Shown here: in pieces, positions 161 to 23,644 of the stretch
How positions within the stretch are numbered: the first letter of the stretch is position 1
How the letters are laid out: every line of letters starts with the position of its first letter
Source of the DNA: an uncultured Eubacteriales bacterium
GTDB taxonomy: Bacteria > Bacillota > Clostridia > Peptostreptococcales > Anaerovoracaceae
Direction of reading: 5' to 3'
DNA: 33,566 nucleotides
Assembly (NCBI GenBank): GCA_900315125.1
Contig: OMXT01000043.1
Coordinates: forward strand, 1 to 33,566
Translations under genes and position numbers: made by a program
Notes under the pieces: generated by a model
Told to the model about the DNA's origin: nothing
The model's database searches: none
The model's input: only the letters and a program-made list of their open reading frames with translations

Positions 161-340
161 TCAGTCCTTCTTCAGCACCTCCGGCACTGCCACATCATCG
201 GTAATAATACGCATATTTCCCTCATCGTTCGCTTCGGGCTGGTCGATCTCCGGCTCGTCAGAATTGATGCGGATCTCCGGAATCGCGCTGGTTTCACCGA
301 AATCAAAATGAGGTTTCCTGTGTTTCTTTTTGTCTGTCAT
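161..340 (-). CDS. Small acidic protein of unknown function, 59 aa
   Basis: The ATG at 340 is chosen because GAAGGAG lies 10 bases upstream; a GTG at 349 is also in frame but touches the Shine-Dalgarno and is unlikely. The protein is hydrophilic, with a basic N-terminus (TDKKKHRKPHFDFG) and a strongly acidic middle (NSDEPEIDQPEANDEG), with no signal peptide and no membrane segment, so it is probably cytoplasmic and perhaps partly disordered. It follows the GltS-type permease by 29 bases on the same strand and is the last recognisable gene of the leftward gene set. I do not recognise the family. A role as a small partner of the permease is speculation from position alone. Confidence 0.6.
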   Translation of the reverse strand: MTDKKKHRKPHFDFGETSAIPEIRINSDEPEIDQPEANDEGNMRIITDDVAVPEVLKKD

Positions 341-369: not shown

Positions 370-1542
370 TCAGTGCAGGAAGTTTATAAAGAATGTTACC
401 GTCAGGCTGTTCAGGAAATCGGCGAACATGCTCCCGACGATGGGCACCAGCAGGTAAGCCTTGACGGAGGGAACATACTTGGCTGTGATCGCCTGCATGT
501 TAGCCATGGCGTTGGGCGTAGCGCCCATGCCGAATCCGCAGATACCGGCTGTGAGGACCGCCGCGTCGTAATCGTGACCCATAACATTGAAGACCACGTA
601 GCGGGCAAAGATATACATAAATATCGTCTGTCCCAGAAGCAGTACAAACAGCGGAAGTGCCAGATCCGCAAGCTGCCAGAGCTTGAGCGTGATCATGGCG
701 ATGCCGAGGAAGAGGGACAGACAGATGCCGCCCAGGTCGTTGATCTCGCCCATGTGGATCTGGAAGGCGCCGGTATATTCACTGATATTCCTCATGATTG
801 CCGCGATGATCATGGCTCCGATATACACCGGGAATGTCATGCCTGTCATAGACAGGAAATAGGAGACCACCGTACCCAGTCCGGCTGCAATCGCCAGCTG
901 ATACATAGCCGGCGCGTACATGGAAACGGAACGATGATGCTTCTCTTCCTCCTCTACAAGCAAAGTGTCGTCCTCCGGGACCGCTGTCTTCACCAGATCC
1001 TTCTTCATGATCAGGCGGTTGGAAATCGGGCCGCCCATGAGGGAACCTGCAATCAGACCGAATGTAGCGGCTGCTGTCGCCAGTGTCGTCGCTCCCGTAA
1101 CGTTCATATCCTCCAGCAGAGGTCCGAACGCGCCCGCCGTGCCGTGGCCGCCGATCATAGGAATGGAGCCTGTGCACATACCGATCAGCGGATCGATGCC
1201 CAGTACTTTGGACAGCCCTGTGGCAAGGCCGTTCTGGCAGACGATCAGGACAAACACTGCGATCAGGAAGATCAGCAGATCCTTGCCGCCGCTCTTCAGC
1301 ACCTTCATGTTCGCCTGGAATCCGACGGATGTAAAGAACAGCACCATGCACACGTTCTTGATGGTCTCATCAAACTCCAGGTCCATGATCCCTGCGACAT
1401 ATAATACGCATGTGATTATGGCAAAGACCAGTCCGCCGATGACCGGAGCTGGGATGCAGAAGGCCTCCAGGAAGTGGATGCGCCTGCGCAGATAAGCTCC
1501 GACGAAGAGAGCAACAACGGCCAGGGCCATAGTCTGGTACAT
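370..1542 (-). CDS. GltS-type sodium:glutamate symporter domain, in frame with the upstream TAXI gene
   Basis: A 390-residue polytopic membrane protein of the ESS/GltS family (Na+-coupled glutamate uptake in characterised members). The glycine-rich re-entrant signatures are visible as GSIPMIGGHGTAGAFG in the first half and AGICGFGMGATPNAMANM in the second, the inverted-repeat layout of the family; a charged cytoplasmic loop (EDDTLLVEEEEKHHRS) separates the halves. Length is close to the usual 400. The first ATG (1542) has no Shine-Dalgarno. The frame is open upstream to the TAG of the TAXI gene at 1630-1632, adding 29 residues (KYYEKEGI...SRIYSLD). This suggests that the protein arises by fusion, read-through or re-initiation from the TAXI reading frame. 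Substrate is inferred from family; it could carry another acidic amino acid or carboxylate. Confidence 0.85.
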   Translation of the reverse strand: MYQTMALAVVALFVGAYLRRRIHFLEAFCIPAPVIGGLVFAIITCVLYVAGIMDLEFDETIKNVCMVLFFTSVGFQANMKVLKSGGKDLLIFLIAVFVLIVCQNGLATGLSKVLGIDPLIGMCTGSIPMIGGHGTAGAFGPLLEDMNVTGATTLATAAATFGLIAGSLMGGPISNRLIMKKDLVKTAVPEDDTLLVEEEEKHHRSVSMYAPAMYQLAIAAGLGTVVSYFLSMTGMTFPVYIGAMIIAAIMRNISEYTGAFQIHMGEINDLGGICLSLFLGIAMITLKLWQLADLALPLFVLLLGQTIFMYIFARYVVFNVMGHDYDAAVLTAGICGFGMGATPNAMANMQAITAKYVPSVKAYLLVPIVGSMFADFLNSLTVTFFINFLH

Positions 1543-1629
1543 GTCCAGGCTGTAGATCCGGCTGCCGTTCTCTGAACGCGCGGGTTCATCCCCGGCGGAT
1601 ACCGTAATGCCTTCCTTCTCGTAATATTT

Positions 1630-2562
1630 CTACGCCGCCTTGGCAAAGGGCGCGGCGATCCCTGACGATGCGTACTTCGGCGTCATTTCATCGGTCTGAG
1701 CAGTTAGCGTCTGCAGTTTATCGCTGTTCTTAAACAGACTGGTGATCACCGCAGTGACCGCATCGGGGTCTGTATCGGTATTGGTGACGAGCACTGCCTT
1801 GATGCCGATCGTCTGAATATCGTCGGTCTGGCCTTTGTACGTGCCCGCAGGAATCTCAGCCACGCTGTAGCCGTCATATTTCTGCTGGATCTGGGAAAGA
1901 GAACGTTTATCCAGGGAAACCAGCCGGATGTCCATATCCTCCGCAAGCTCAGAAACCGCAGTTGTGGGTGCTGACGCCGTACAGAAGAAGGCGTCGATCT
2001 TTCCCCTCTTCAGCGCACTGGCAGATGCGTCAAAGGACAGATTGACCGATTCAATATCCTTAGCTGACAGACCATAAGTCGCCAGGATCTGCTCCGCGTT
2101 GCTCTGGACGCCTGATTCCTTCGATCCAATAGAAACCCGCTTCCCCTTCAGGTCGCTCACCGTCCTGATGTCAGAGTTCTTCGCCGCAACGATCTGGCAG
2201 GACTCGGTGTACAGTCCGGCAATTGCTCGAATCTCCGCAAGGGGTCCATCCTCAGAAAACTCACCGGTGCCCTCCACCGCGTCCTTCAGCGTATCATTCT
2301 GTACGATAGCCAGATCTGCCAGACCGTTGGAAAGCAGCCGCAGGTTAGACGCGGAACCAGCCGTAGACTGGACATGAACGGAACCGGCCGCCTTCTCATC
2401 CGCGAGAATCTTCTTTAGTTCTTTTCCATACTTGTAGTAAGTACCTCCTTTTCCCCCGGTACCCAAGGTCAGCTCATCGCCGGACGAATCCCCGCAGCCA
2501 GCCAGACTAAAGTCGGCGAGACAAACGATCAGAATGAGCAGCATCAGTTTCTTTCTGTTCAA
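1630..2562 (-). CDS. TAXI-family solute-binding lipoprotein, cut by an in-frame TAG
   Basis: Periplasmic-type binding protein of the TAXI family, here an exported lipoprotein. The start is taken as TTG at 2562 because AAAGGAG lies 8 bases upstream, giving MNRKKLMLL, a hydrophobic signal and the lipobox SLAGC. Family motifs follow: LGTGGKGGTYYKYG near the N-terminus, QSTAGSASNLRLL, the LADLAIVQND strand and DLKGKRVSIGSKESG. The reading ends ...SGIAAPFAKAA then TAG; the next codons read KYYEKEGI, which is what the C-terminus of TAXI proteins normally looks like. The stop therefore falls where the family continues, and the same frame then enters the GltS permease. TAXI proteins usually work with TRAP membrane subunits of the fused 4TM-12TM type; none is here, so the GltS protein is the likely partner. 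About 220 bases separate it from the LUD gene. Confidence 0.85.
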   Translation of the reverse strand: MNRKKLMLLILIVCLADFSLAGCGDSSGDELTLGTGGKGGTYYKYGKELKKILADEKAAGSVHVQSTAGSASNLRLLSNGLADLAIVQNDTLKDAVEGTGEFSEDGPLAEIRAIAGLYTESCQIVAAKNSDIRTVSDLKGKRVSIGSKESGVQSNAEQILATYGLSAKDIESVNLSFDASASALKRGKIDAFFCTASAPTTAVSELAEDMDIRLVSLDKRSLSQIQQKYDGYSVAEIPAGTYKGQTDDIQTIGIKAVLVTNTDTDPDAVTAVITSLFKNSDKLQTLTAQTDEMTPKYASSGIAAPFAKAA

Positions 2563-3623: not shown

Positions 3624-4706
3624 TTATTTATTCTCGTGATCAATATCTTCCTGAAGCAGGTCAAGGAACTTCTGTCCGTCTTCACCGGCATCCTTCAGGT
3701 AAACCTTTTTCGCCTTTTCGCCGGCAGTCTTTGCCCATGTATTGATCTGGTCATCGGACATTTCTATGATCTTCATGTCCGGCTTTGCCTTCTTGATTGT
3801 CTCAAGCGCTTCTTTATCTGTCTTGTCGCGGTCTTTGATCGCCTCAGCATTCGTCTTGTTAAATACTTCCTGAATCTTTTCTTTGTCGCTGTCAGACAGG
3901 CTCTTCCAAAGTGACGGGCTGACGCAGCTTACATCCAGTACACACTCATGATGGGTAAGGAGCATGTATTTCTGTACTTCATAATATTTGTTGGCTGCAA
4001 TGATCGAAGGCGGATTCATCTGGCCGTCAACAGTACCTAACTGTAGTCCGCTGTAAATCTCACTGTAATCCAGTGTCTGCGCAGAAGCGCCGAATCCTTC
4101 CGCGTTAGCTACATCGATGGAAGAATTCATAGCACGGATCTTCTGACCCTTCAGGCTGCTCATGTCTGTGGTGAGTTTCTTGTTACTGGTGATGCAGCTG
4201 TAGGATTCCGGATACCATGCAAGGGCCTGATAACCCTTGTCAGCCAGAAGACCATTGAGGTACTTGATTGCCTTGCCGTCCTGAACAACATATGTCAGTT
4301 TATCAGAATCCTGAGGGAGGATATAGTTTATTCCAAGTCCTTCTGCTGCAGGTACGGAAGATCCCAGCTCGAGGAAGAGGAACTGTGCGAACTCCACGCC
4401 GTCATCGTGAACAAGCTCCATGCGCTGTGATTCGTTTCCGAGCTTGGCATTGCCGGAGAGCTTCAGCGTAACATTCGGGAATTCCGCTTCCATATTCTTC
4501 TTGAGCAGTTTGGCATACTGGTCGATCGCATCTCCATTACGTCCGGTGTGAGCGTATGTCCAGGTAATATCTCCCTGATCTGCTATACTCTTTGCGTCCG
4601 ATGAACCTGAACTGGAACTGCTGCTGCTCGAAGAACTTCCGCAGGCAGCCAGGACCAGAGCCATAGAAAGAATCAATCCAACTACTAATAAAACCTTCTT
4701 CTTCAT
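3624..4706 (-). CDS. dctP: TRAP transporter solute-binding lipoprotein (DctP family)
   Basis: Extracellular receptor of the TRAP transporter. The ATG at 4706 is preceded by GGAGG with 8-base spacing and gives MKKKVLLVVGLIL, a signal peptide ending in the lipobox LAAC. After the lipid-anchored Cys comes a linker of ten consecutive serines. The mature part has the DctP pattern: ITWTYAHTGRNGDAIDQYAKLLKKNMEAE at the N-terminus, LKGQKIRAMNS containing the conserved substrate-binding Arg of the family, and SEIYSGLQLGTVDGQMNP. It is the last of three TRAP genes (dctQ, dctM, dctP in transcription order). The ligand is unknown: most DctP proteins bind organic acids, and the enzyme genes upstream suggest a nitrogen-bearing carboxylate. 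Family assignment is firm; substrate is inference. Confidence 0.92.
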   Translation of the reverse strand: MKKKVLLVVGLILSMALVLAACGSSSSSSSSSSGSSDAKSIADQGDITWTYAHTGRNGDAIDQYAKLLKKNMEAEFPNVTLKLSGNAKLGNESQRMELVHDDGVEFAQFLFLELGSSVPAAEGLGINYILPQDSDKLTYVVQDGKAIKYLNGLLADKGYQALAWYPESYSCITSNKKLTTDMSSLKGQKIRAMNSSIDVANAEGFGASAQTLDYSEIYSGLQLGTVDGQMNPPSIIAANKYYEVQKYMLLTHHECVLDVSCVSPSLWKSLSDSDKEKIQEVFNKTNAEAIKDRDKTDKEALETIKKAKPDMKIIEMSDDQINTWAKTAGEKAKKVYLKDAGEDGQKFLDLLQEDIDHENK

Positions 4707-4755
4707 CTTTCTGTCCTCCATGTGATAACAACTTGACTTAAGATATAACGTAATC

Positions 4756-6030
4756 TCAACGATAAATTAACGCAAGATCCGGAAATACAATATATATAAC
4801 CGAAATGATCAGCAAAATGATTAAATAGGGCGGCAGTCCCTTAATGATGTCAACATAGGACCTCTTGAATGCCGCGCATGCAACAAAGATATTCGAGCCG
4901 AAGGGCGGAGTGATGAATCCAATTGCCGACTGAAGACATACCAGGACGCCGACATAAATCGGATCCATTCCCATAGCGGTTGCCATGGGGAATACCAGAG
5001 GCACAAGCAGAATCATCGCAACGATCTGGTCCATCAGCATACATGCGATCCAGAAAGCAACCGAAATAAGGATAGCCATGCCAAGAGGCGTTGAAATATG
5101 CTTCAAAGCAATCTCTGTTACTGCAGTCGGAATATCGAAATATCCGAGAACCCATGAGAATCCCTGGCCAAGTCCAATCAGGATGAAGATGGCACTTGTC
5201 ATGATTCCGCTGCTCTCCGTAATGGAGAATAGATCCCTGATCTTTACCGTTCTGTAGATAAGCATCTCGCAGATCATAGCATAGATTACGGAAGCTGCCG
5301 CTGCTTCTGTCGGCGTAAATATTCCGGAATAAATGCCGCCTACAATCAGAACAGGAAAACCCAATGCCAGAATAGACTTCTTGAAGACCTTCCATCTTCC
5401 CGGCCAGTCGACACGCTCGCTTCTCGAGATATCATGTTTTCTGGCATAGATGTAATTATATACCGAGAAGAACAGGAAACAGATGATCCCCGGAATGATC
5501 CCGGCGATAAACATCTCTCCTACGGAAGCGTTCGTCAGTACGCAGTACATGATCATGTTGATGCTGGGCGGAATCAATGTAGCGATGGTTGCGGAGCTGC
5601 AGATCAGCGCATCTGTATTCTGTGCATCATATCCGCTGGAAATCATCCGTGAACGGAGCGGTTTGCCTATTGCCACAACGGTGGCATTTCCGGAACCGGA
5701 AATCGCGCCGAAAACAGTACAGGCGCCGGCAACGGTGATGGCAAGTCCTCCGTAGAGATGTCCGCAGAAGGCTTTGATAAAATCCACAAGATGATTTGCC
5801 GTCATTCCATAACTCATAATATCCGCTGCAAGGATAAACATGGGTATGGCTACAAGAGTAAACGTGGATACCCCTGCTATATCCTGCTGGACCAGAAACA
5901 TCATATTGAGGTTTGGATTCAGCGCAAAGATCATGCCCAGCGCTCCAAAAGTGAACGACGCAATCATCGGGAACCCCGCCAGAAGCAGGAGAAGCATGAT
6001 AATCAGCACAATTGCAATGCTTATACCCAT
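4756..6030 (-). CDS. dctM: TRAP transporter large permease (DctM)
   Basis: Polytopic membrane subunit that carries the ion-coupled transport step of the TRAP system. About twelve hydrophobic segments are seen over 424 residues, the normal size. Family features include FTFGALGMIFALN near the start, the MFILAADIMSYGMTANHLVDFIKAFCGHLYGGLA segment, GAISGSGNATVVAIGKPL, and FVPL-type C-terminal motif FITPPFGSNIFVACA. The ATG at 6030 is preferred: AAAGGAGG lies 10 bases upstream, whereas the GTG at 6039, which overlaps the dctQ stop, lies only one base from that site. It is translationally close-coupled to dctQ (5-base gap). Confidence 0.93.
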   Translation of the reverse strand: MGISIAIVLIIMLLLLLAGFPMIASFTFGALGMIFALNPNLNMMFLVQQDIAGVSTFTLVAIPMFILAADIMSYGMTANHLVDFIKAFCGHLYGGLAITVAGACTVFGAISGSGNATVVAIGKPLRSRMISSGYDAQNTDALICSSATIATLIPPSINMIMYCVLTNASVGEMFIAGIIPGIICFLFFSVYNYIYARKHDISRSERVDWPGRWKVFKKSILALGFPVLIVGGIYSGIFTPTEAAAASVIYAMICEMLIYRTVKIRDLFSITESSGIMTSAIFILIGLGQGFSWVLGYFDIPTAVTEIALKHISTPLGMAILISVAFWIACMLMDQIVAMILLVPLVFPMATAMGMDPIYVGVLVCLQSAIGFITPPFGSNIFVACAAFKRSYVDIIKGLPPYLIILLIISVIYIVFPDLALIYR

Positions 6031-6035
6031 GAGAG

Positions 6036-6587
6036 TCACGCCTCCTTTCCCTTTTCTGCCGTAATTTCATCCGTCTTGAGGAGCGGTTCACGGCCAACAT
6101 AAATTTTATCTTTCTGGCTTACGGTAAGAAGAAACAGGATGAGATACTCCAAAGCAAGAAGCAGCATCCCTGCGCCTACAATATAGTAACCTATTGATGT
6201 AGGGATTTTCATTACCTGGGTTACCCGCCCCTGTGCCTGGGCTGTCATCGCATATTCAAAACCGATATACGCCATATATCCTGCAAGTATGACCATGGCG
6301 ATATTGATCACCATGGACCATATCCGCTTGACGCTCCACTTTGCTCTGTCAAACAGATACGAAATCTTGATCTGGCCATCGCTCCTTGCCACCAGTGCGG
6401 CACACCCGAAGGTCACAAGCAGGATGCACTCATAGCAGACTTCCGAGGAAAATACAAGACTGCCATTAAATGCAAAACGAAGTACAACTTCAGCAAACAG
6501 CAGCACAGCCATAACGAGCATGCTTGCCACAATAACGGCTTTCATAATTATTTCTATAGCGCGGTCAATTGTTTTTAGTATTAGCAT
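6036..6587 (-). CDS. dctQ: TRAP transporter small permease (DctQ)
   Basis: A 183-residue membrane protein with four predicted helices: residues about 14-34, 48-66, 87-107 and 129-150. This is the DctQ layout. The ATG at 6587 follows GGGAG by 6 bases. The mid-protein segment VTFGCAALVARSDGQIKISYLFDRAKW matches the DctQ pattern in which a helix ends before a polar loop with conserved basic residues. The charged C-terminal tail (KTDEITAEKGKEA) is cytoplasmic. It lies between the racemase-family gene (53-base gap) and dctM. DctQ forms the membrane complex with DctM and is needed for transport in characterised systems. Confidence 0.9.
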   Translation of the reverse strand: MLILKTIDRAIEIIMKAVIVASMLVMAVLLFAEVVLRFAFNGSLVFSSEVCYECILLVTFGCAALVARSDGQIKISYLFDRAKWSVKRIWSMVINIAMVILAGYMAYIGFEYAMTAQAQGRVTQVMKIPTSIGYYIVGAGMLLLALEYLILFLLTVSQKDKIYVGREPLLKTDEITAEKGKEA

Positions 6588-6640
6588 TGAATTCTCCCGC
6601 TTTCATAGTTAGATGATTTCTATAAAGACAAACCGGCTGA

Positions 6641-7417
6641 TCATAGGTAATTAAACAGTGATCCATACCCCCTGATTTCACCCTGATAACCTATTTTTCT
6701 AAGAGCCGCAAATAAAGAAACCTGGTTGCTGGAAAGAATGGGGATCCCCAGTTTCTTTTCCAGCACATCGATGATCTCAATCGTTCTGGAGTTGGTGCAG
6801 CTGATAAATGTACCGTCGACATCCGGTGATTTATCGTACATTTCCAATACTGATTCTGCGAATCGCGCAGGGCTGACCCGTACGATCTCCGTATCTAATG
6901 CACATTGTTCGCCAATCAGGTTCTCCACAGTTACGCCTTTTGCTTCAACAAATTTCTTTTCTTCAACATTGACTGCGTCTTCATAAGGCGTCGCCATATT
7001 GATTTTCTTGCAGCCGGTACACTGAAGAGCCTGCAGGAGACCTGATGATGTTGTCGTGGCCGGGATTCCGCCAGCTGCATCCGATATGCGCTTTGCCAGC
7101 TTCTCATCCCACCCCGGACCTCCGAGGAAACTTCCTGCCGTACATGCAAACACGATAACGTCTACCTCGCAGGAAGCAAGCTGCTTTGCCAACTTTTCCA
7201 CTGCATTGGAATTCACCATATTCCAGATATCTTCCTTTTCTGCAGAATCGCCGTCTATAGAAATCCGAGCCACATGGAAGGATACATCATCGGGCAGAGC
7301 CATGTGCCACTCTTTTTCCAGAGACAGGCTGGAAGCGATGTATATAACGCCGATCTTCGCAGCCCATTCCGACCTTTTCCTTACTGCCGCAAGTTCCTTT
7401 TCTGTCAGTCTGGTCAT
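6641..7417 (-). CDS. Asp/Glu racemase superfamily enzyme (maleate isomerase / arylmalonate decarboxylase-like)
   Basis: A 258-residue enzyme with the two catalytic-cysteine motifs of the Asp/Glu racemase superfamily, VFACTAGSFLGG in the N-terminal half and FISCTNSRT in the C-terminal half. The overall pattern (IGVIYIASS...W, TTTSSGLLQAL, MATPYEDAVNVEEKKF, ILSSNQVSLFAALRKIGY) is that of the maleate cis-trans isomerase and arylmalonate decarboxylase branch, not the true amino acid racemases. The ATG at 7417, with AGAGG upstream, starts 10 bases after the stop of the ureohydrolase gene, so the two are surely cotranscribed. Reaction and substrate cannot be told from sequence; candidates are isomerisation, racemisation or decarboxylation of a small dicarboxylate or hydantoin-derived acid. 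Confidence 0.82.
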   Translation of the reverse strand: MTRLTEKELAAVRKRSEWAAKIGVIYIASSLSLEKEWHMALPDDVSFHVARISIDGDSAEKEDIWNMVNSNAVEKLAKQLASCEVDVIVFACTAGSFLGGPGWDEKLAKRISDAAGGIPATTTSSGLLQALQCTGCKKINMATPYEDAVNVEEKKFVEAKGVTVENLIGEQCALDTEIVRVSPARFAESVLEMYDKSPDVDGTFISCTNSRTIEIIDVLEKKLGIPILSSNQVSLFAALRKIGYQGEIRGYGSLFNYL

Positions 7418-7427
7418 ACCCTGCCTC

Positions 7428-8324
7428 TTACTTTTCCGCGGCTCCGTAGTACGCTCCGGCAATGTAATCAAGGATCAGATTCGCTGCAACATGGCTTGTG
7501 AGTTCGTTATGATCCGTCATGGGATTAACTTCGACAAAATCAATAGCATCAACATAAGGCGCCAGATACTTTATCATGGCAGACAGCTGGAAATGATTCA
7601 GTCCCTTCGGCTCCTGACCGCCGCTTCCCAGGGCATAAGCCATATCCAGGGCATCGATGTCTACCGTCATGTAGATATAATCCGTGTCTTTCCTTGCGAT
7701 TTCCAGCACCTTCTCCGCGGTCCTCTGCGCGCCCTCTGCGTAAACCTCATCCGGTGTGATAATTGTGATCCCGCTTTCTTTAATAAAATGGTAATGCTCC
7801 GGATAATTGTATCCTCTCGGACCAATCTCAACGATATTTTTCGGATCGTACTTTTCCATTTCCGTTGCGCGCCGGATTTCACTGCTTCCGGAATAATTAC
7901 CCTGTACCGGCGTACCAATCTGCAGATCCAGATGGGCATCGAAATCAATGATTCCTATCTTTCCCTGGGCAAATTCATGCATCGCCATAAAACCGGCATT
8001 CGTCGTAGAATGATCGCCGCCGAGAATAAGGGGCTTATATCCTTCTTTGAATACCTTCAGTATCTCCGCTGCCATATTCTGCTGGGCTTTCAGATTATCA
8101 TAGTGGCAAATATTATCCGTATTTCCAAAGTCCTTCAGGTCGATCTGGTTATAATCTACCAGGCAGTTTCGATTCACATCGAACAGGAAGCCATTTTCCA
8201 TCCGGTTCATGATTCCAGCCATCATCTTTCTTATGCTGTCCGGCGCATATCGCGCTCCAGGCCATCCTCTGCCTGCCTCTGTATCATAGTTTAACCCGAT
8301 CATTCCCAACTTAAGCTTATCCAT
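7428..8324 (-). CDS. Ureohydrolase (agmatinase/arginase/guanidino-acid hydrolase family)
   Basis: A 298-residue enzyme of the Mn2+-dependent ureohydrolase family, which cleaves guanidino compounds to an amine and urea. Metal ligands are visible as GGDHS, DAHLD and the third motif DIDALD. The third motif continues MAYALGSGGQEPKGL, whereas agmatinases and arginases normally have DP.(F/Y)APGTG-type text, so the substrate loop differs from both. The ATG at 8324 is preceded by GAAGGAG with 8-base spacing. It is the first gene of the leftward set, about 70 bases downstream of a sigma-54 promoter. Agmatine, guanidinobutyrate, guanidinoacetate, arginine or formimidoylglutamate are all possible; I do not assign speB. 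Confidence 0.85.
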   Translation of the reverse strand: MDKLKLGMIGLNYDTEAGRGWPGARYAPDSIRKMMAGIMNRMENGFLFDVNRNCLVDYNQIDLKDFGNTDNICHYDNLKAQQNMAAEILKVFKEGYKPLILGGDHSTTNAGFMAMHEFAQGKIGIIDFDAHLDLQIGTPVQGNYSGSSEIRRATEMEKYDPKNIVEIGPRGYNYPEHYHFIKESGITIITPDEVYAEGAQRTAEKVLEIARKDTDYIYMTVDIDALDMAYALGSGGQEPKGLNHFQLSAMIKYLAPYVDAIDFVEVNPMTDHNELTSHVAANLILDYIAGAYYGAAEK

Positions 8325-8400
8325 TCCTAATTCTCCTTCGTTGCAGAACATTAAAGTGTTAACTCATTCCTGAGATGCATCACGAATATGCGAATATAAC

Positions 8401-11305: not shown

Positions 11306-13510
11306 TCAGCCAAGTCCCCCGTTCCGCAGGAGCTCATTGATCTTGTCAAAATCCGAAGAGTTGATGAACGCCTCTGCATCGAATTCCTCATCAGACTCAT
11401 CTTCTTCTGCCTTCGGAAGACGTTCTGCTCCCGGCCTGTGCATCTCCATATACTTCGTCTCCCAGTTCGGATCCCAGTAAACAGTATACTCGTTCATGAT
11501 GCATCGATGGCACAGATCATCGGCGACCTCCTGAATCACATCTTTCAGTTCCAGATCCCGCGTCCACTTTTCCTCAATGCTGCTGAAGCCCAGCAGTGCG
11601 CCCAGGATATTTCCTGTGACTGCCCCGGTAGAGTCGCTGTCTCCGCTGTGGTTGACGGCGGCGATGACGCCTGCGGAAAAGTCATCCTGATGCCGCAAGC
11701 TGCAGTAGATGGCGATAGCCATGGTCTCCTCCGCGACCCAGCCTTCGCCCAGGCGCCGGATGTTTTCTCTGTCACCCTCCTCATTTTCCGAAAGACTGAT
11801 GGCCTGGTCGATAAGATCACAGACCGTCCCGATATGCTTATCATCCTTAAAGTACCGGCGAACCTTATCCCTGGCATCGATCACCATCGACTTAAGGGTT
11901 CGTTTCCTGCCGCCCTTGCCGAAGACGATCTGGTTTATGATCAGTGTGATCACAGCAGCCGGAATATAGCCCAGGGAGTTTCCATGGGTGATCGCCGCGA
12001 TCTCCGCTCCTTCCCGGGCCATGGATTTCTCATCTACATTATCGTAGTAAAGTGCCAGAGGAGCGACCCGCATGATCCCGCCGCATCCCTTGCTGTTATT
12101 CCGCGGATGATCGATGCTCTGCCCATTGCCCTCCCGGAATTCCTCCAGGGCAGTCAGGCATGTCGTTCCCGGCGCCCGCTGGCTGAAGAGTTCCGGTACA
12201 TCATTCAGCCATGTCCTCTGCCAGATTTCTTTGCGGCTGACCTTTCTCTGCCATTCCTGAATCGTCATTTCCTGCGTAGCGAGCCAGTCCAGGTAAGCGC
12301 CTGCCACGTAGTTGTGAGGATGCGCCCCTACTCCTCTCATGTGCAGTCTCGTATCACCCACCATGATCCCTGCAGCGGTATACAGCGTCATCTGGGTATC
12401 GTCAGAAATCAGGGCTTTGCCTGTCGCAGGATCAAGATCATAGGACTGGATCCCCGACCGCCCGTATTTCTGATCTATCGACCCTGAGTCCAGGAATTCC
12501 ACCGGATATCCCAGGGCGTCGCCCACAGCTCCGCCCAGCATGCAGCCGCGGATCTGGTCAAGATGAGCCTCCCTCGCCAGAACCCGGCTGCGAGCATCGT
12601 CATATTCTGCCTGATCCTCATCCCGGTAAAAATTGCTGAAATTCCGGGCAAACTCTCTGTAGTTGTACTGATCCCGCGAATGGTCCAGAACGGCGAAATC
12701 GATCCGCCGGAAGAAATCCTTCAGATGCATGTCGTTGTATTCGAACTCCTTCATTACCTGGTAGAAAATATCCGACACAACATGGGCGTCGTTATGGAAG
12801 GCGCCGCATCCGAAAGCCCCAAGGACCAGGACTCGGTACCCGTAAAAAGCCGCAGCCGTCAGCATCCCCCGGATCCTGCCGTACACCATCGCCTCATACT
12901 GCTCCTGGGACAGGCCTTCTATCCCCCGGGACAGAGAAGGCGCTGCGCAGGTCATGACAGACACAATTACACTCTCGTCCAGCAGTTCGCCCTGCTCGTC
13001 CCGGATGATCTCCACATTGGGCGTTATAATTACAGCATCCGAGCCCATTCGAGTACGGAGACCGGCGTTGTACTCGTAATACGGCTGAGCATCCGAGCTC
13101 TCCAGCGCCGCAAGCAGGGAACTCCGGCGGCACAGCGACTCTTCCTGAGCCTGAGCGCCATTTCTCACTCCCCCGCCAGGATGCACTGGATTAGCCAGAT
13201 TGAGCACGAGAATATTCTTGTTCTCCTCGCCGTCAAACATGTACCAGCAGTCCTCATAGCGCTGCATTGCCAGTTCCAGAGCGTCTGCATTTTCCGCGCC
13301 CACGCCGCACCGCCCGGCGAAGAAGATCTTCTCCATGCTGTCATCTCCCTCGATCTCACGGATATCCTGCGGCAGCAGCACGATGGATTCCTCCATCTGC
13401 TCCCGGCTCAGCTCCAGTGCGGTCCGTCTTCCATCTTTTTCGTAATATCCCTTCTCCAGTATGTCCAGTGTTTCGTCCAGCATTCTGATATTTTCATCTC
13501 TTTTGCTCAT
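11306..13510 (-). CDS. Bacterial PARG-type domain fused to ADP-ribosylglycohydrolase (ARH) domain
   Basis: A 734-residue two-domain protein predicted to remove ADP-ribose from macromolecules. Residues about 20-290 match the microbial PARG family (DUF2263/TIGR02452), with the catalytic loop HPGGGVRNGAQAQEES: GGG at 112-114 and QEE at 122-124, as required for poly(ADP-ribose) glycohydrolase chemistry, and the phosphate loop GAFGCGAF near 231-238. Residues about 318-650 match the ARH/DraG family, with GCMLGGAVGDALGYPVEF, the Mg-binding SDDTQM at 369-374 and GDSDSTGA at 623-630. A low-complexity acidic segment (EEDESDEEFDAEAF) lies near the C-terminus. Both active sites look intact, so the enzyme could act on two kinds of ADP-ribose bond. 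AAGGAGG precedes the ATG by 7 bases. Confidence 0.92.
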   Translation of the reverse strand: MSKRDENIRMLDETLDILEKGYYEKDGRRTALELSREQMEESIVLLPQDIREIEGDDSMEKIFFAGRCGVGAENADALELAMQRYEDCWYMFDGEENKNILVLNLANPVHPGGGVRNGAQAQEESLCRRSSLLAALESSDAQPYYEYNAGLRTRMGSDAVIITPNVEIIRDEQGELLDESVIVSVMTCAAPSLSRGIEGLSQEQYEAMVYGRIRGMLTAAAFYGYRVLVLGAFGCGAFHNDAHVVSDIFYQVMKEFEYNDMHLKDFFRRIDFAVLDHSRDQYNYREFARNFSNFYRDEDQAEYDDARSRVLAREAHLDQIRGCMLGGAVGDALGYPVEFLDSGSIDQKYGRSGIQSYDLDPATGKALISDDTQMTLYTAAGIMVGDTRLHMRGVGAHPHNYVAGAYLDWLATQEMTIQEWQRKVSRKEIWQRTWLNDVPELFSQRAPGTTCLTALEEFREGNGQSIDHPRNNSKGCGGIMRVAPLALYYDNVDEKSMAREGAEIAAITHGNSLGYIPAAVITLIINQIVFGKGGRKRTLKSMVIDARDKVRRYFKDDKHIGTVCDLIDQAISLSENEEGDRENIRRLGEGWVAEETMAIAIYCSLRHQDDFSAGVIAAVNHSGDSDSTGAVTGNILGALLGFSSIEEKWTRDLELKDVIQEVADDLCHRCIMNEYTVYWDPNWETKYMEMHRPGAERLPKAEEDESDEEFDAEAFINSSDFDKINELLRNGGLG

Positions 13511-13612
13511 ATGCGTTCCTCCTTTTCTCTTCCAACAAAGGCCTGACCTGCCGTCTTTCTAACAGCAGAACGCCTCCTGATATGTCCTGCACCTTTATTA
13601 TGTACTGAGGAT

Positions 13613-13680
13613 ACACCAGAAGGCGGTGCCTGTGGTCGCCTGCCGGGCGACAATTGCAGATGCCGCTGCCGCCGCACACT
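13613..13680. repeat. Upstream segment shared with the second ARH gene (copy A)
   Basis: The stretch upstream of the PARG-ARH gene, from about 13590 to 13675, aligns without gaps over 83 bases with the stretch upstream of the second ARH gene (16074-16160); I count 59 identities by hand. The core is GTCGCC/GGCGAC flanking a five-base loop, then AATT. On the plus strand the reading CRATIADAAAAA resembles the first residues of a GNAT acetyltransferase, so it may be a gene remnant. It may equally be a shared control region. Confidence 0.5.
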
Positions 13681-14555
13681 CACAGGTCAAAGGCTTCCAT
13701 ATGCGCAAACATATAATCAATAAAGCGGCGGCTAGCTGCCGGCATCAGACGGCGATCCTTGGAAATCAGATAGATATCCCGGGTGATCAGCGGAACGATC
13801 GGCTTGACGGCGACCCGGTAGTCCACGTGATTCATTACCATGTAAGGGAGGATCGTCACGCCCAGACCGTCCTGAACCATGGACAGGATAGAAGGATCGT
13901 CTTCTACCTCAAGCCGGATCGTCGGTTCTATTCCCGCAGCGCTAAAAGCCTCCTGGACCGTTTGGCCGCCGATTTCCAACAGAAAACTCTCTTCAGACAG
14001 TTCTTCCAATGTCACATAAGGTCTGTCCGCCAGCGGATGATCCTGGGGAATCACTGCACAGAATTCACTTTTCTTGATGAGCTGTGTGTTCAATCCATTG
14101 CTGTTATCCGGTGCGGTAGTAAATCCAAAGTCCGCCTTGCCCGTTATTATCATTTCTTCTATAGTATCCAGAGTCCCGCTGGGAAGATAGAATTTCACAT
14201 TGGGATACTGTTTCCAGAAGCCACGGATCAGACCGGGCAGCCACCGGGACGAAACACTGGAGAACACAACGAGCCGGACTATGCCTGATTCCAGACCGTT
14301 GATCTCACCGGCAATCTCCTGTATAGACCGGTAATCGGCGATGGTCTGCTGTATGGCAGGATAAAGCTGTTCGCCCTCCGGGGTAAGACGGATACCATAG
14401 CGAGAACGGTCCAGGATCTTAACCTGAAGTTCCTTTTCCAGGGCAGTGACGCTCTGACTCAATGCAGGCTGTGTGTACCCCAGTTCTTCTGCTGCGCCGG
14501 TGAATGAACCCAGCTCGATGATTTTCTGAACAGCAATGCAGGAATTGATATTCAT
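13680..14555 (-). CDS. LysR family transcriptional regulator
   Basis: A 291-residue regulator. The N-terminal winged helix is clear (LGSFTGAAEELGYTQPALSQSVTALEKELQVKILDRSRYGIRLTPEG, residues 15-65). The effector-binding domain follows, with the first strand GIVRLVVFSSVSSRWLPGLIRGFWKQYP. This is the CysB-like co-inducer fold of the family. AGAAAGG precedes the ATG. It lies between the PARG-ARH gene (169-base gap downstream) and a divergent small membrane protein gene at 14860. LysR regulators usually control a divergent or adjacent gene, so the small membrane protein is the first candidate target. The ligand is unknown. Confidence 0.95.
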   Translation of the reverse strand: MNINSCIAVQKIIELGSFTGAAEELGYTQPALSQSVTALEKELQVKILDRSRYGIRLTPEGEQLYPAIQQTIADYRSIQEIAGEINGLESGIVRLVVFSSVSSRWLPGLIRGFWKQYPNVKFYLPSGTLDTIEEMIITGKADFGFTTAPDNSNGLNTQLIKKSEFCAVIPQDHPLADRPYVTLEELSEESFLLEIGGQTVQEAFSAAGIEPTIRLEVEDDPSILSMVQDGLGVTILPYMVMNHVDYRVAVKPIVPLITRDIYLISKDRRLMPAASRRFIDYMFAHMEAFDL

Positions 14556-14859
14556 ATAAGCCTTTCTTATACTATCATAATTTAAATAACAATGCTTATG
14601 CTCTCATATTAAGCCCGTGCAAGCTGAAATGCAATAAAAATCAACAGACCGCAGCCGATTTCACTTTAGCCGAATAAAATACATATAATAATATTTTATG
14701 TTAAACTAAAATACATTAATTTGACTTATTAAAATGCAGATGCTATTATCTGTTTGTCGAAAGGGAAGGAGCAGCAACAGAAGCGCAAGCCTCCTGAGGC
14801 CCTGACGAAGAAGATAAAGAAAATAATAAAGAACCCAACGTGGATAGAGGAGGTACATT
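14556..14859. promoter_or_regulatory. Divergent region between lysR and the small membrane protein gene
   Basis: No gene is seen here. A strong rightward promoter is present: TTGACT (14721-14726), 17-base spacer, TATTAT (14744-14749). It implies a 5' leader of about 105 bases, longer than needed, holding a short GCCTC/GAGGC stem near 14790-14802. The part near lysR is A+T-rich with repeated ATTTAAAT-like text where LysR binding would be expected. Confidence 0.55.
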
Positions 14860-15147
14860 ATGAAGGCTTTTAACACATTCTGCAGAAAACTCAACACCGT
14901 ATTAAACAGCATCAGCGCTGTTCGCTGGGCGGAACTTACGGCAATTTACTGGATCGCTCTGAACGCGGCGGCAACTCTGCTGACAGGAAGAACATCGACA
15001 TTCATCATGGCTATGGCAGGTATAGTCGTTTTCTGCCTGCTGCTGAGAAGAGACAGGGAAGCAAAGGCAGCTGCAAAAGCCACGGCTGCAAGAGGATCTG
15101 CGAAAACATGGACGTCCGCAGACCGTGATTACAAACAGGCAGCATAA
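14860..15147 (+). CDS. Small membrane protein of unknown function, 95 aa
   Basis: Two hydrophobic segments (about residues 25-42 and 46-63) are followed by a basic, alanine-rich cytoplasmic tail (REAKAAAKATAARGSAK). The ATG follows AGGAGG by 7 bases and a strong promoter lies 110 bases upstream, so I take it as a real gene although I do not recognise the family. It is divergent from lysR and ends at a long hairpin terminator. A target of the LysR regulator is a reasonable guess from position only. Confidence 0.65.
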   Translation: MKAFNTFCRKLNTVLNSISAVRWAELTAIYWIALNAAATLLTGRTSTFIMAMAGIVVFCLLLRRDREAKAAAKATAARGSAKTWTSADRDYKQAA

Positions 15148-15194
15148 TTATCCTGCCTGGAATCGACTGAACAATTGATTATTGCAAAAAAACG

Positions 15195-15244
15195 GAGCTG
15201 TCTCCGGAGGCAAGAATCATAGCCTCCGGAGACAGCTCTTTTTT
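15195..15244. terminator. Bidirectional intrinsic terminator with a perfect 17-bp stem
   Basis: Arms 15195-15211 and 15222-15238 pair perfectly over 17 bp (GAGCTGTCTCCGGAGGC) around a 10-base loop, with TTTTTT after the right arm and AAAAAAA before the left arm, so it can stop transcripts from both strands. The stop codon of the leftward ARH gene (15219-15217) lies in the loop, so the terminator also encodes the last residues of that protein (SCLRRL). Confidence 0.9.
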
Positions 15245-16038
15245 CTTAATATCCCGATCCGCTGCTCTGCCGCAAGCAGCGTGTCCCGAAGCTCCGGGGT
15301 CAGGTAGGTCAGGGCTCGGTTCCTGAGGTCAGCAGGGACGCCGTAGTAGGCCTGGGCTATCCCTCCGGCGATTGCGGATGTTGTATCGCAGTCCCCTCCA
15401 ATGGAGATACAGTTGCGGATGGTATCCTCGTAGCCCGTGGATTCGAAGAACCCTTCCAGCGCCTGAGGCATGGATGCCTGACAAGTTTCTGCACCGTGGA
15501 TATACGTAGGACGGATCTGTTCTAATGTAAAATCTATCGGGTAGAAGTTCTCCTCGATGTAAGCGCGGATCTCTTTCATACTCTTGCCATTCCTTGCCAG
15601 CCAGATCGCTGCTGCAGCCGCCTGGGCGCCCTTGATCCCCTCCGGATGGTTATGGGTCACGGAAGCGGTGATTTCCGCCATATCCAGCGCGTCCTGAAGG
15701 GACCTGGCGGCGAATCCGCAGGCGCTGACACGCATGGCAGAACCGTTCCCGCAGCTGTTGTAGGGCTGGGGATCATCACCGAACATCCAGCGGATGAACC
15801 GTCCGCCGTAGCCGCAGCCGGGGTAGTGCCTGCCGATCTCCTGCATGCAGCGGATGGTCAGCTCCGCCAGGTCGCTGCGGTCCGGGGCACAAAGGCTTAC
15901 TGCCTTGGCTACGGCAATGGTCATCACCGTATCATCGGTAAAATAACAGTCGTCTGCCAGGAACTCAAAGTCCTTCGTCTTAATATTATGGAATTCAAAT
16001 CGCGAACCTGCGATATCTCCTATGATCGCTCCTATCAT
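15217..16038 (-). CDS. ADP-ribosylglycohydrolase (ARH/DraG family)
   Basis: A 273-residue single-domain ARH protein, predicted to hydrolyse ADP-ribose from a modified side chain or from a small ADP-ribosyl compound. Motifs: MIGAIIGDIAGSRFEF at the start, metal-binding FTDDTVM at 33-39, NGSAMRVS at 98-105, THNHPEG and the second metal site GGDCDTT at 214-220. All ligand Asp residues are present. AGGAGG precedes the ATG by 9 bases. It shares a related upstream segment with the PARG-ARH gene, and follows the macro-domain gene by 124 bases on the same strand. The last residues are encoded by the left arm of a terminator, which probably extends the natural C-terminus. Confidence 0.93.
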   Translation of the reverse strand: MIGAIIGDIAGSRFEFHNIKTKDFEFLADDCYFTDDTVMTIAVAKAVSLCAPDRSDLAELTIRCMQEIGRHYPGCGYGGRFIRWMFGDDPQPYNSCGNGSAMRVSACGFAARSLQDALDMAEITASVTHNHPEGIKGAQAAAAAIWLARNGKSMKEIRAYIEENFYPIDFTLEQIRPTYIHGAETCQASMPQALEGFFESTGYEDTIRNCISIGGDCDTTSAIAGGIAQAYYGVPADLRNRALTYLTPELRDTLLAAEQRIGILRKKSCLRRL

Positions 16039-16095
16039 ATGATCTTACCTCCTGTTCTACTGGTGTATCTGCTTTCTTTATTCTGTGATAAGCAT

Positions 16096-16162
16096 ACGCC
16101 AGAAGAGCTCCGATATGGTCGTCCGGCAGGCGACAATTACGGATGCCTGCGCCGCCGCAGCG
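16096..16162. repeat. Upstream segment shared with the PARG-ARH gene (copy B)
   Basis: This is the second copy of the 83-base segment, about 60-125 bases upstream of the ARH start. Its hairpin is GTCGTC-CGGCA-GGCGAC on the plus strand, where copy A has GTCGCC-TGCCG-GGCGAC: the five-base loop is the exact reverse complement while the arms are conserved. The plus-strand reading MVVRQATITDACAAAALFL looks like the start of a GNAT acetyltransferase but is lost after about 20 residues. Confidence 0.5.
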
Positions 16163-17245
16163 CTATTTCTCACTGCTGAGCGTCGGCTGACCGTAGTTGA
16201 ACAGCGCAGCATCGATCGTATAAATGTTATAGTTTTTTTCTTTAACGAAATAAGAGATGATCAGATCGAATCTGCTGCTGGGGGACAAAGCAATCCCTGC
16301 CCTTGACAGGAGATCCTGCAATGCGGGCATATCCAGCTCCAGAGCAATCGCGAGAGCGACCGCTGTCTTCTTCGTCGGATGGTAATCTTTATTGCAGCGG
16401 ATGCGGGAGAAGAGCTTGCGGTCGATATTCGCTTTCTTATACACTGCCACGTCATCCATGCCCTTCTCGTCGATCAGCCGGAACAGCCGCTGCTGGAAGG
16501 TATCGCCGGTATTTTCCAGCAGTTCATCCAGGCTTTCGCCTCCTGCTGCCGGAGGTTTTCCGGCTGGCATGCCCTTCGCTGCCTGCAGATGAGCTGGCAG
16601 AGACATGCCCTCCTGCCCCTCGCCTCTCCGTTCAGCATCAGCAGCGACACGCAGCGCGTCCAGATACTCCCGCCGCCGGTCATTACCGCCCCGGTATTCT
16701 TCTCTGCCAATGCTGTGAACTCCGTTCTCATCGATGTATTCCGAGATATCGCTCATGAGCCTGCCGGAAAGTTCAAATGCCTTTCGGTCGAAGACGACCA
16801 GGATCACGTCCATGTCGCTGGTCAGCAGGAAACGGCTGATTTCAGCAAGTGCGATCTGCAGCGCCTCATCCTTCGGAAATCCATATACCCCCGTAGCGAT
16901 AAGCGGAAAGGCGATACTTCCGCACTTCAGCTCATCCGCCAGCTCCAGTGAATTCCGGTAGCAATCATGCAGGATCTCCCGTTCGCTGTGATTCCCGTCG
17001 ATCCACGCCGGTCCTACGGTATGGATCACATACCTGGCCTGCAGCTGAAAGGCGTCGGTGCTCCTCGCCTGTCCCGGCTCTATCACGCCGATCTTCTTTC
17101 GCTGGGCAAGGAGCTGCTTTTCTCCCGCAGCACTGTAAATCGCCCGATCCGTTCCGTCTCCTATGACAGGTTTGGGATTGGCGGTATTTACTATCGCATC
17201 GGCTTTTACTTTTGTAATATCATTTCTTATGATCTGAAAGGGCAT
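16163..17245 (-). CDS. Macro-domain protein with XRE-like C-terminal domain
   Basis: A 360-residue protein. Residues 1-170 form a macro domain, a module that binds ADP-ribose and in some families removes it: NDITKVKADAIVNTANP at 8-24, IGDGTDRAIYSAAG at 28-41 and LIATGVYGFP at 115-124. The first loop reads GDGTDRAIY where many macro domains have GGGVDxAIH, a recognised variant rather than damage. A low-complexity linker (about 180-240) leads to a C-terminal helix-turn-helix-like domain (YKKANIDRKLFSRIRCNKDYHPTKKTAVALAIALELD, then SPSSRFDLIISYFVKEKNY). This pairing suggests an ADP-ribose-responsive DNA-binding or adaptor protein. GAGGTG precedes the ATG. It ends in TAG. Confidence 0.88.
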   Translation of the reverse strand: MPFQIIRNDITKVKADAIVNTANPKPVIGDGTDRAIYSAAGEKQLLAQRKKIGVIEPGQARSTDAFQLQARYVIHTVGPAWIDGNHSEREILHDCYRNSLELADELKCGSIAFPLIATGVYGFPKDEALQIALAEISRFLLTSDMDVILVVFDRKAFELSGRLMSDISEYIDENGVHSIGREEYRGGNDRRREYLDALRVAADAERRGEGQEGMSLPAHLQAAKGMPAGKPPAAGGESLDELLENTGDTFQQRLFRLIDEKGMDDVAVYKKANIDRKLFSRIRCNKDYHPTKKTAVALAIALELDMPALQDLLSRAGIALSPSSRFDLIISYFVKEKNYNIYTIDAALFNYGQPTLSSEK

Positions 17246-21629: not shown

Positions 21630-22844
21630 TTAAATGTGATATGCCTCTTCGTGATGGAGTGCTTCGTCCAGTCCTTCCTCTTCCGCTTCTTCCGAGACAC
21701 GGACGGGCAGGAAGCAGTTGACCACCTTCAGGATCAGCCATGTGACGGCAAAGGCATAGACGCCGGCAAATACGGTTGCGCCGAGCTGGATCAGGAACTG
21801 GTGAACGTCTCCTTCGATCAGGCCGCTGACGCCATTGACAGAGGAAGCTGCGAACACGCCGGTCAGGATGGTTCCCAGAATGCCGCCTACGCCGTGAACA
21901 CCCCATACGTCCAGCGCGTCGTCCCAGCCCCTGCGATTCTTAAACTGAACCGCATAGTAACATACGATACCAGCAGCGAGACCGACGATGACTGCTGACC
22001 AGGGCTTGATGTAGCCCGCTGCCGGAGTTACTGTGGCAAGTCCTGCCAGAGCGCCTGTCATGACTCCTACGAAACTGGGCTTTCCATCCTTGATCCAGGA
22101 AATGATCAGCCAGGAGATCATGGCGAAGGATGCGCCGAGATCTGTATTGACAAACGCGATAGCGGCCAGGCCGTTTGCGCCCAGAGCGCCGCCTGCGTTG
22201 AATCCGAACCAGCCGAACCACAGGAGGCCGGTTCCCAGTGCTACATGAGTGACGTTATGAGGTTCCAGGTCATCCTTGCTCTGGACATGACGTTTACCTA
22301 CAAAGAATACGGATGCCAGGGCTGCCATACCTGCGCTGGCATGTACAACGATGCCGCCGGCGAAGTCAACGACGCCAAGCTGTCCCAGGAATCCGCCGCC
22401 CCATACCCAGTGGCACAGGGGAGCATAAATAAGGATGCTCCAGAACACAAGGAACACGAGGTAACTCTTAAAATTAACCCGGTCCGCAAAGGCGCCGGTT
22501 ATCAGCGCCGGAGTCAGGATCGCAAACATCTCCTGATAACTGAAATAGGTAAAGAACGGGATCGTCTTGCTGTAAGCGGGATTCGGATCCATTCCCACCG
22601 CGTTCAGGAAACAGTATTTGGCGCCTCCGATAATTCCGCCGATATCCGGTCCGAAAGCCATGGAAAATCCGAAAATAAACCAGATGATAGTTACAACGCC
22701 CATGGATATAAAGCTCTGCATCATAATCGTCAGAACGTTTTTCTTGTTAACAAGGCCGCCGTAGAAGAACGCGACGCCCGGCGTCATAATAAATACCAGG
22801 GCTGCACATACCATCATAAAGGCAGTATCACCGTGATCGATCAT
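21630..22844 (-). CDS. amt: Ammonium transporter (Amt/MEP/Rh family)
   Basis: A 404-residue, 11-helix membrane protein that moves ammonium into the cell. The helix-1 text MTPGVAFFYGGLVNKKNVL, the Phe-gate segment LTPALITGAFADR, HWVWGGGFL (conserved Trp), VDFAGGIVVHASAG with the first twin His at 168, and VWGVHGVGGILGT with the second at 317 are all intact, so transport should be functional. The C-terminal tail (EEAEEEGLDEALHHEEAYHI) is acidic; no glnK/glnB gene for a PII partner is adjacent. AAAGGAG precedes the ATG by 9 bases. It lies downstream of the Amt-kinase and response-regulator genes, separated by a terminator hairpin. Confidence 0.96.
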   Translation of the reverse strand: MIDHGDTAFMMVCAALVFIMTPGVAFFYGGLVNKKNVLTIMMQSFISMGVVTIIWFIFGFSMAFGPDIGGIIGGAKYCFLNAVGMDPNPAYSKTIPFFTYFSYQEMFAILTPALITGAFADRVNFKSYLVFLVFWSILIYAPLCHWVWGGGFLGQLGVVDFAGGIVVHASAGMAALASVFFVGKRHVQSKDDLEPHNVTHVALGTGLLWFGWFGFNAGGALGANGLAAIAFVNTDLGASFAMISWLIISWIKDGKPSFVGVMTGALAGLATVTPAAGYIKPWSAVIVGLAAGIVCYYAVQFKNRRGWDDALDVWGVHGVGGILGTILTGVFAASSVNGVSGLIEGDVHQFLIQLGATVFAGVYAFAVTWLILKVVNCFLPVRVSEEAEEEGLDEALHHEEAYHI

Positions 22845-23002: not shown

Positions 23003-23644
23003 TTAAACTTCTATGATATGATTGCGCACGGCATAGAGCACCAGATCCGTGATGTTGCGGAAGTGATGCTTATGCATGATACTGGCCCGGTGGTTCTCCA
23101 CGGTCTTCACAGAAATAGACAGAATATCCGCGATCTCCTTATTGCTGTGGCCCTCCGCAAGGAGTTTCAGCACTTCCATTTCCCGGCCGGACAGGTCTTT
23201 GCCCTGGCGCTCATTTTCCATGAATCCGCTGAGCAGTATGGGTGCAAGTTCCCGGGATACAAAGACCTGACCGTCCTTTACCGTGCGGATGGCCTGAGCC
23301 AGCTCTTCGAAGGCATTTTCCTTCAGCACATATCCCTTCGCCCCGTGGAAGAATGCCTCCGCCAGCATGTCCTCATTCTTATGCATGGTCAGCATGATCG
23401 TTTTGACCGAGGGCCAACTCTTCTGCACCTGCCGGGCCACTTCCAATCCATTTACCGTCGGCATGGAGACGTCCAGGAGTAGGATATCTGTATCTGTTTT
23501 CTCAAGAAGCTGCAGGCACTCTGCTCCATCCGCCGCCTGACCTGCTACGGTAAAGTCGTCTTCCATCTCAAGGAGCATGCACAGAGACTCCCGGAGCATT
23601 TTATGATCATCCGCAATAAAGATCCTGATTTTCTCACCGTCCAT
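23003..23644 (-). CDS. NarL/FixJ-type response regulator
   Basis: A 213-residue response regulator. The receiver domain (1-120) has the acidic pair ADDHK at 11-15, the phospho-acceptor Asp58 in DILLLDVSMP, the conserved Thr (IMLTMHKN) and Lys (KGYVLKENAF). The LuxR-type helix-turn-helix (LSGREMEVLKLLAEGHSNKEIADILSISVKTVENH) occupies about 145-200. The ATG overlaps the end of the Amt-kinase gene by 11 bases and GGAGG lies upstream, so kinase and regulator are produced together and form a cognate pair. The downstream amt gene is the most likely target. Confidence 0.95.
   Translation of the reverse strand: MDGEKIRIFIADDHKMLRESLCMLLEMEDDFTVAGQAADGAECLQLLEKTDTDILLLDVSMPTVNGLEVARQVQKSWPSVKTIMLTMHKNEDMLAEAFFHGAKGYVLKENAFEELAQAIRTVKDGQVFVSRELAPILLSGFMENERQGKDLSGREMEVLKLLAEGHSNKEIADILSISVKTVENHRASIMHKHHFRNITDLVLYAVRNHIIEV

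Follow-up and report, generated by a model that had tools for sequence, protein, structure and literature searches.

TAXI receptors normally serve TRAP membrane subunits. A different arrangement is described in the sections of Jaques et al. (2025; PMC12344293) considered here, which present TAXI-GltS as a novel class of secondary transporters that depend on a binding protein. These sections report that BP0403 of the Bordetella pertussis pair BP0402/BP0403 binds L-glutamate, and that its gene overlaps gltS by 3 bp. Direct fusions of the two proteins account for 14 of about 10,000 GltS entries in InterPro, the majority of them from Lachnospiraceae, with Lachnoanaerobaculum saburreum given as an example, and functional coupling is said to need experimental proof (PMC12344293). 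Our literature search for TAXI-GltS found only this paper. Since the architecture is published, the locus analyzed here represents a further, interrupted member.

The window, i.e., the whole stretch of DNA that was analyzed (33,566 nucleotides of contig OMXT01000043.1, assembly GCA_900315125.1, from an uncultured Eubacteriales bacterium), carries the following features at the locus:

1630 to 2562, minus strand: TAXI lipoprotein frame of 310 codons and TAG, with a truncated C-terminal helix; PF16868, TIGR02122, TAXI fold
1630 to 1632, minus strand: TAG stop, codon 311 of the TAXI frame, inside the domain and in the modelled helix 308-316
1543 to 1629, minus strand: 29 open codons after the TAG, made up of the TAXI end (KYYEKEGI) and a linker to GltS
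370 to 1542, minus strand: GltS sodium/glutamate symporter of 390 codons and stop; PF03616, TIGR00210; without a start site like that of its unfused relatives
161 to 340, minus strand: small ORF of 59 codons and stop (coding 164 to 340, stop 161 to 163) with two A-x-P-E motifs; ribosome site −9.2

The TAXI frame starts at a TTG at 2562 with a strong ribosome site (anti-SD energy −8.7), contains the lipobox LAGC with Cys 23, and runs down the minus strand to 1630, where the C-terminal letters PFAKAA are followed by the TAG. Beyond the stop, the frame continues unshifted through 29 sense codons (KYYEKEGITVSAGDEPARSENGSRIYSLD) up to the GltS ATG at 1542 and from there to the stop at 370-372. The TAXI half was matched by PF16868 (E 2.1e-73) and by TIGR02122 over its cut-off (Pfam, NCBIfam). 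The GltS half, the sole PF03616 match in the genome, reached an E of 4.2e-110, and TIGR00210 was likewise over its cut-off. The original prediction of a single TAG splitting one TAXI-GltS frame was therefore borne out by the in-frame continuation into GltS. Both parts lie on the minus strand, which had been left unstated. The predicted fusion length of about 741 residues did not hold for the window, with about 730 residues when read through, but uninterrupted orthologues of 731 to 762 codons do exist. As both domains share one strand and one frame, and this frame is interrupted by the TAG at 1630-1632, the window was filed as an interrupted relative and not as a working TAXI-GltS fusion.

We read the locus as a TAXI-GltS fusion gene with a stop that lies outside its design, caused either by a recent nonsense mutation in the strain or by an assembly error, and assign this reading a probability of roughly 0.7. 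The N-terminus of GltS lies outside. In the intact design, a lipid-anchored receptor would sit outside the membrane and be connected by a short linker to this outer N-terminus of an elevator-type symporter, a membrane side that is suggested by the lipobox, by an Arg-Arg-Arg after the first hydrophobic stretch and by the GltS topology. Judging from families and fold, the receptor substrate is probably glutamate, and uptake would be Na+-coupled. With a genuine TAG, the gene would mainly yield a TAXI receptor without most of its last helix and, for want of its own start site, GltS would be translated weakly if at all. We infer both the recency of the stop and the loss of function from the comparisons given below. 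One point against this reading is that an open in-frame junction of 29 codons would, by our own estimate, occur by chance about one time in ten.

The position of the TAG was compared in 80 out of 95 TAXI loci. In 79 of these, the frame extends past the point aligned with the TAG as far as an aromatic residue (73 recognized by pattern and 6 by eye), while the 80th, L096, is cut by a contig end. The Tyr of KYY is invariant in a nine-row alignment, and five solved TAXI chains among the matches listed share the C-terminal end HPGA..[YF][YF]KE.G. Relatives and solved structures rule out that the TAG is the natural TAXI end, and agree with the original view that KYYEKEGI is the expected end of the domain. 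An AlphaFold2 model of the window TAXI with its read-on end, built from 31 rows, had a pLDDT of 89.9 and a pTM of 0.86. In this model, the last helix comprises residues 308-316, and the block 311-320 has a mean pLDDT of 98; the TAG, codon 311, sits inside the TAXI domain and cuts this confidently modelled last helix. The best Foldseek matches of the model were the glutamate TAXI structures 8u79, 1us4, 9ibo and 8s4j (TMq 0.84-0.85). A model of the whole read-through protein from a four-row alignment was discarded at a pLDDT of 40.1. Separately, a TAXI gene of a goat caecum assembly (L069) was seen to contain one in-frame TGA at codon 114, counted from position 5001, with the frame otherwise open.

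Uninterrupted TAXI-GltS orthologues, which the original prediction had proposed to look for, were found among the nearest GltS relatives. Intact fusions of 731 to 762 codons are present in all six genomes of one genus (L163, L164, L193-L196), and none of the six has a stop at the TAG position. The closest GltS relatives found include intact fusions with 76-78% identity to the window. Within the Anaerobutyricum hallii family, 43 of the 397 genomes drawn had a GltS match, and two genomes carry the uninterrupted frame with 731 codons. With 76-77% identity, these two held the nearest GltS relatives of that search, and the genus with six intact fusions is that of one of them. The matches listed for the window's own family, with 349 genomes, and for its order (393 genomes drawn) include no frame of fusion length. 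GltS of any kind occurred in 17 of 111 loci, the window record L001 included; in seven of the 110 non-window loci TAXI lies directly before GltS, each time as two frames. A GltS-type permease as the receptor's partner, as originally proposed, is thus recurrent in these loci and has been published for other bacteria. In a genome with an intact fusion, about 2 kb from this fusion, a second piece (L197, G627:C1:384439-384597) matches the last 53 GltS residues with 89% identity and is perhaps a remnant of a duplication.

For the trees, nine repeat loci were omitted. In the GltS tree (85 rows), the window groups with both fusions present (SH-aLRT 96), inside a clade of 23 rows (SH-aLRT 99) that holds the window, the two fusions, 18 TAXI-adjacent members and two without TAXI. 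The latter, L116 and L171, have a GltS of the same clade with no TAXI gene detected adjacent, and a small two-motif ORF behind it. In the TAXI tree (22 rows), the window is nearest by path to L115, a relative from the same family with two separate genes, at a node that lacks resolution. Common descent with the known fusions is accordingly suggested by the GltS half of the sequence only, and, since the TAXI tree does not group it with the fusions, the window may have acquired its fusion independently. L115 has TAXI and GltS in one frame with a short gap between them, so that a fusion of this kind could arise through a small deletion.

The age of the stop was estimated from conservation on both of its sides. 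The window GltS keeps 181 of 183 columns that are invariant in nine relatives, and its unique changes against seven outgroups (18-27) compare with 22-34 in the intact fusion L163. Since the rate of change in GltS does not exceed that of an intact fusion, a recent origin of the stop is probable, unless it is an assembly error; this fits the original suggestion of a fusion disabled recently. Of 27 columns invariant across 19 relatives, the window TAXI retains 26, with the long branches L175 and L186 left out of the count. The exception is a lost His, four codons ahead of the TAG, which could be a mild sign that the TAXI end has been loose for longer. Within the main reading, the sub-case that the TAG exists in the assembly only, as a base error or minority allele, and that the fusion of the organism is intact, appears rather unlikely, though well worth keeping in mind. 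It would explain why about 730 codons are open and conserved apart from a single lesion, the draft consists of 101 contigs with many tRNAs missing, and the six intact fusions are free of the stop. However, no direct sign of an error was seen, base errors that create exactly one stop are a priori rare, and the lost invariant His adjoins the TAG.

Start signals bear on the next alternative, an ordinary two-gene operon in which the TAG is the working TAXI stop, and translational coupling lets GltS start at ATG 1542 or at a rare start codon within the junction. The ATG at 1542 has an energy of −3.3, and among the 30 rows scored in the window (28 genes, two of them with a second start) only an alternative DctP start was weaker; four of the guessed starts lie off ATG, GTG or TTG, and their energies mean little. 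The weak start is in line with the original observation of a GltS ATG without ribosome binding site. In each of the 20 unfused clade members, an ATG precedes the GltS MYQ motif by 6-7 codons, with energies from −3.9 to −11.6, whereas the window has none at this place and only ATG 1542. The intact fusions L163 and L164 gave −0.6 at the GltS start and −0.7 at a TTG. The stretch between PF.KAA and the Met of MYQ measures 30 codons in the window, with the TAG counted, versus 29 in L163. A GltS without its own start site is what a fusion has and a two-gene operon has not, and the complete TAXI end before the stop that would go with two genes is absent in the window.

The two-gene alternative gains from the 18 clade members with TAXI and GltS as separate genes, from the one-frame arrangement of L115 and its position nearest to the window in the TAXI tree, from the likewise weak site of the window's LysR gene (−3.5) and from an in-frame ATT at 1608 with an energy of −5.7. 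However, the TAG removes the conserved TAXI end and lies 87 bases ahead of ATG 1542, there is no start codon where all unfused members have one, and the GltS groups with the fusions, and we judge this alternative to be improbable. The original prediction had named, as the finding that would count against it, relatives with two separate genes and own start sites but no homology in the 29 codons after the TAG. The separate genes were indeed found in the 18 two-gene relatives, but the TAXI relatives do show homology just past the TAG. A programmed stop, at which read-through or re-initiation would yield mostly free and some tethered receptor, as had also been proposed, is very improbable: although the TAG lies near the domain boundary with in-frame conservation on either side, and no alternative way of translating GltS is evident, the stop cuts the last receptor helix instead of following the domain, the six intact fusions all lack a stop at this position, TAG terminates four of the 27 other window genes scored, and a tRNA with the anticodon CTA was absent among the 21 Rfam tRNA hits of an incomplete draft, a set that is also without common tRNAs. 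Recoding of TAG is unsupported because of these four genes, and one suppressor tRNA candidate, a single pattern match, is not a tRNA according to ARAGORN.

The small ORF lies directly after GltS on the same strand and aligns with 13 ORFs at the same place in relatives, in which A.PE is invariant twice; the motif consensus is near [YF]-[DE]-N-[VL]-A-[IVM]-P-E-[VI]-H. Within 300 bases after GltS, at least one motif was found in 17 of 23 clade loci compared to two of 59 other GltS loci, and two motifs in 15 of 23 compared to none of 59. This count skipped L144, L146 and L120, which have too little DNA after GltS; the group of 23 includes two of the six intact fusions, and the group of 59 includes L186, a TAXI-adjacent but motif-free GltS outside the clade. 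A profile search of 22 genomes recovered the small ORF in 17 (E 0.004 or better), always beside GltS. As 14 of the 17 supplied rows of the profile and match by construction, what counts in this result is that good copies are lacking elsewhere. Strong matches within the family of the window were obtained in four of 349 genomes, all of them profile members with a close GltS, and the profile did not match in G001, the fifth family genome with a close GltS. Weak matches in G321, G189 and G224 (E 0.007-0.022) and two in G857 (E 0.25 and 0.67) were taken as chance, with those of G321 and G857 having been inspected. None of the six intact fusions is followed by the small ORF, which is also absent in L060, L114, L174 and L175. 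In L166 and L172, a single motif begins the next gene after GltS, encoding a NUDIX protein and an isochorismatase-domain protein, respectively, as if it were a portable tag. No model of Pfam or NCBIfam matches the small proteins, and a small third component is not mentioned, under the terms searched, in the portion of the PMC12344293 text that was covered.

Its conservation makes the small ORF a candidate for an additional, perhaps cytosolic, component of the TAXI-GltS system. We tentatively propose, with the odds somewhat against us, that this third part in the clade is a small, probably cytosolic, two-motif protein that might dock partners at the GltS dimer. Because the ORF is missing behind the six intact fusions, covalent tethering and its loss may be linked. 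If the proposal is true, the window would combine a fusion-type GltS and a broken tether with the small protein still present.

Other genes of the window were recorded as well. A DctP-DctM-DctQ TRAP set lies beside an Amdase-family (PF17645) and an arginase-family (PF00491) gene (3624-8351, minus strand), with a sigma-54 activator at 8708 on the opposite strand. Three close genes of ADP-ribose families (11306-17245, minus strand) comprise PARG and ADP-ribosylglycohydrolase in one frame, a second ADP-ribosylglycohydrolase and a Macro domain protein. An ammonium transporter domain is joined to a histidine kinase at 23634-25427 on the minus strand; this gene is overlapped by a response regulator (23003-23644), and a separate ammonium transporter is located at 21630-22844.

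The first description of TAXI-GltS dates from 2025. Provided that it is real, a fusion interrupted in nature would directly test whether the receptor has to be tethered, in a lineage related to intact fusions. The fusions in the part of PMC12344293 considered here and the window are alike in their N-terminal TAXI, C-terminal GltS and single frame. The six fusions of one genus (L163, L164, L193-L196) are uninterrupted and have no small ORF behind them, whereas the window has the TAG in its TAXI end and the small ORF. Two-gene operons such as that of Anaerobutyricum hallii (L032) show the same families adjacent on one strand, as in the window. Unlike the window, however, the 18 two-gene clade loci have a GltS with its own ATG and ribosome site, and their TAXI ends later. 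In Bordetella pertussis, gltS comes first and the TAXI protein is elongated, according to the same part of PMC12344293, while the order in the window is TAXI and then GltS. Finally, the TRAP-linked TAXI receptors 1us4, 8u79, 8s4j and 9ibo, the titles of which name glutamate, have their fold in common with the window TAXI. In contrast to TRAP-serving TAXI proteins, the window TAXI has GltS as its neighbor, and the TRAP operon of the window (3624-6587) has its own DctP receptor.
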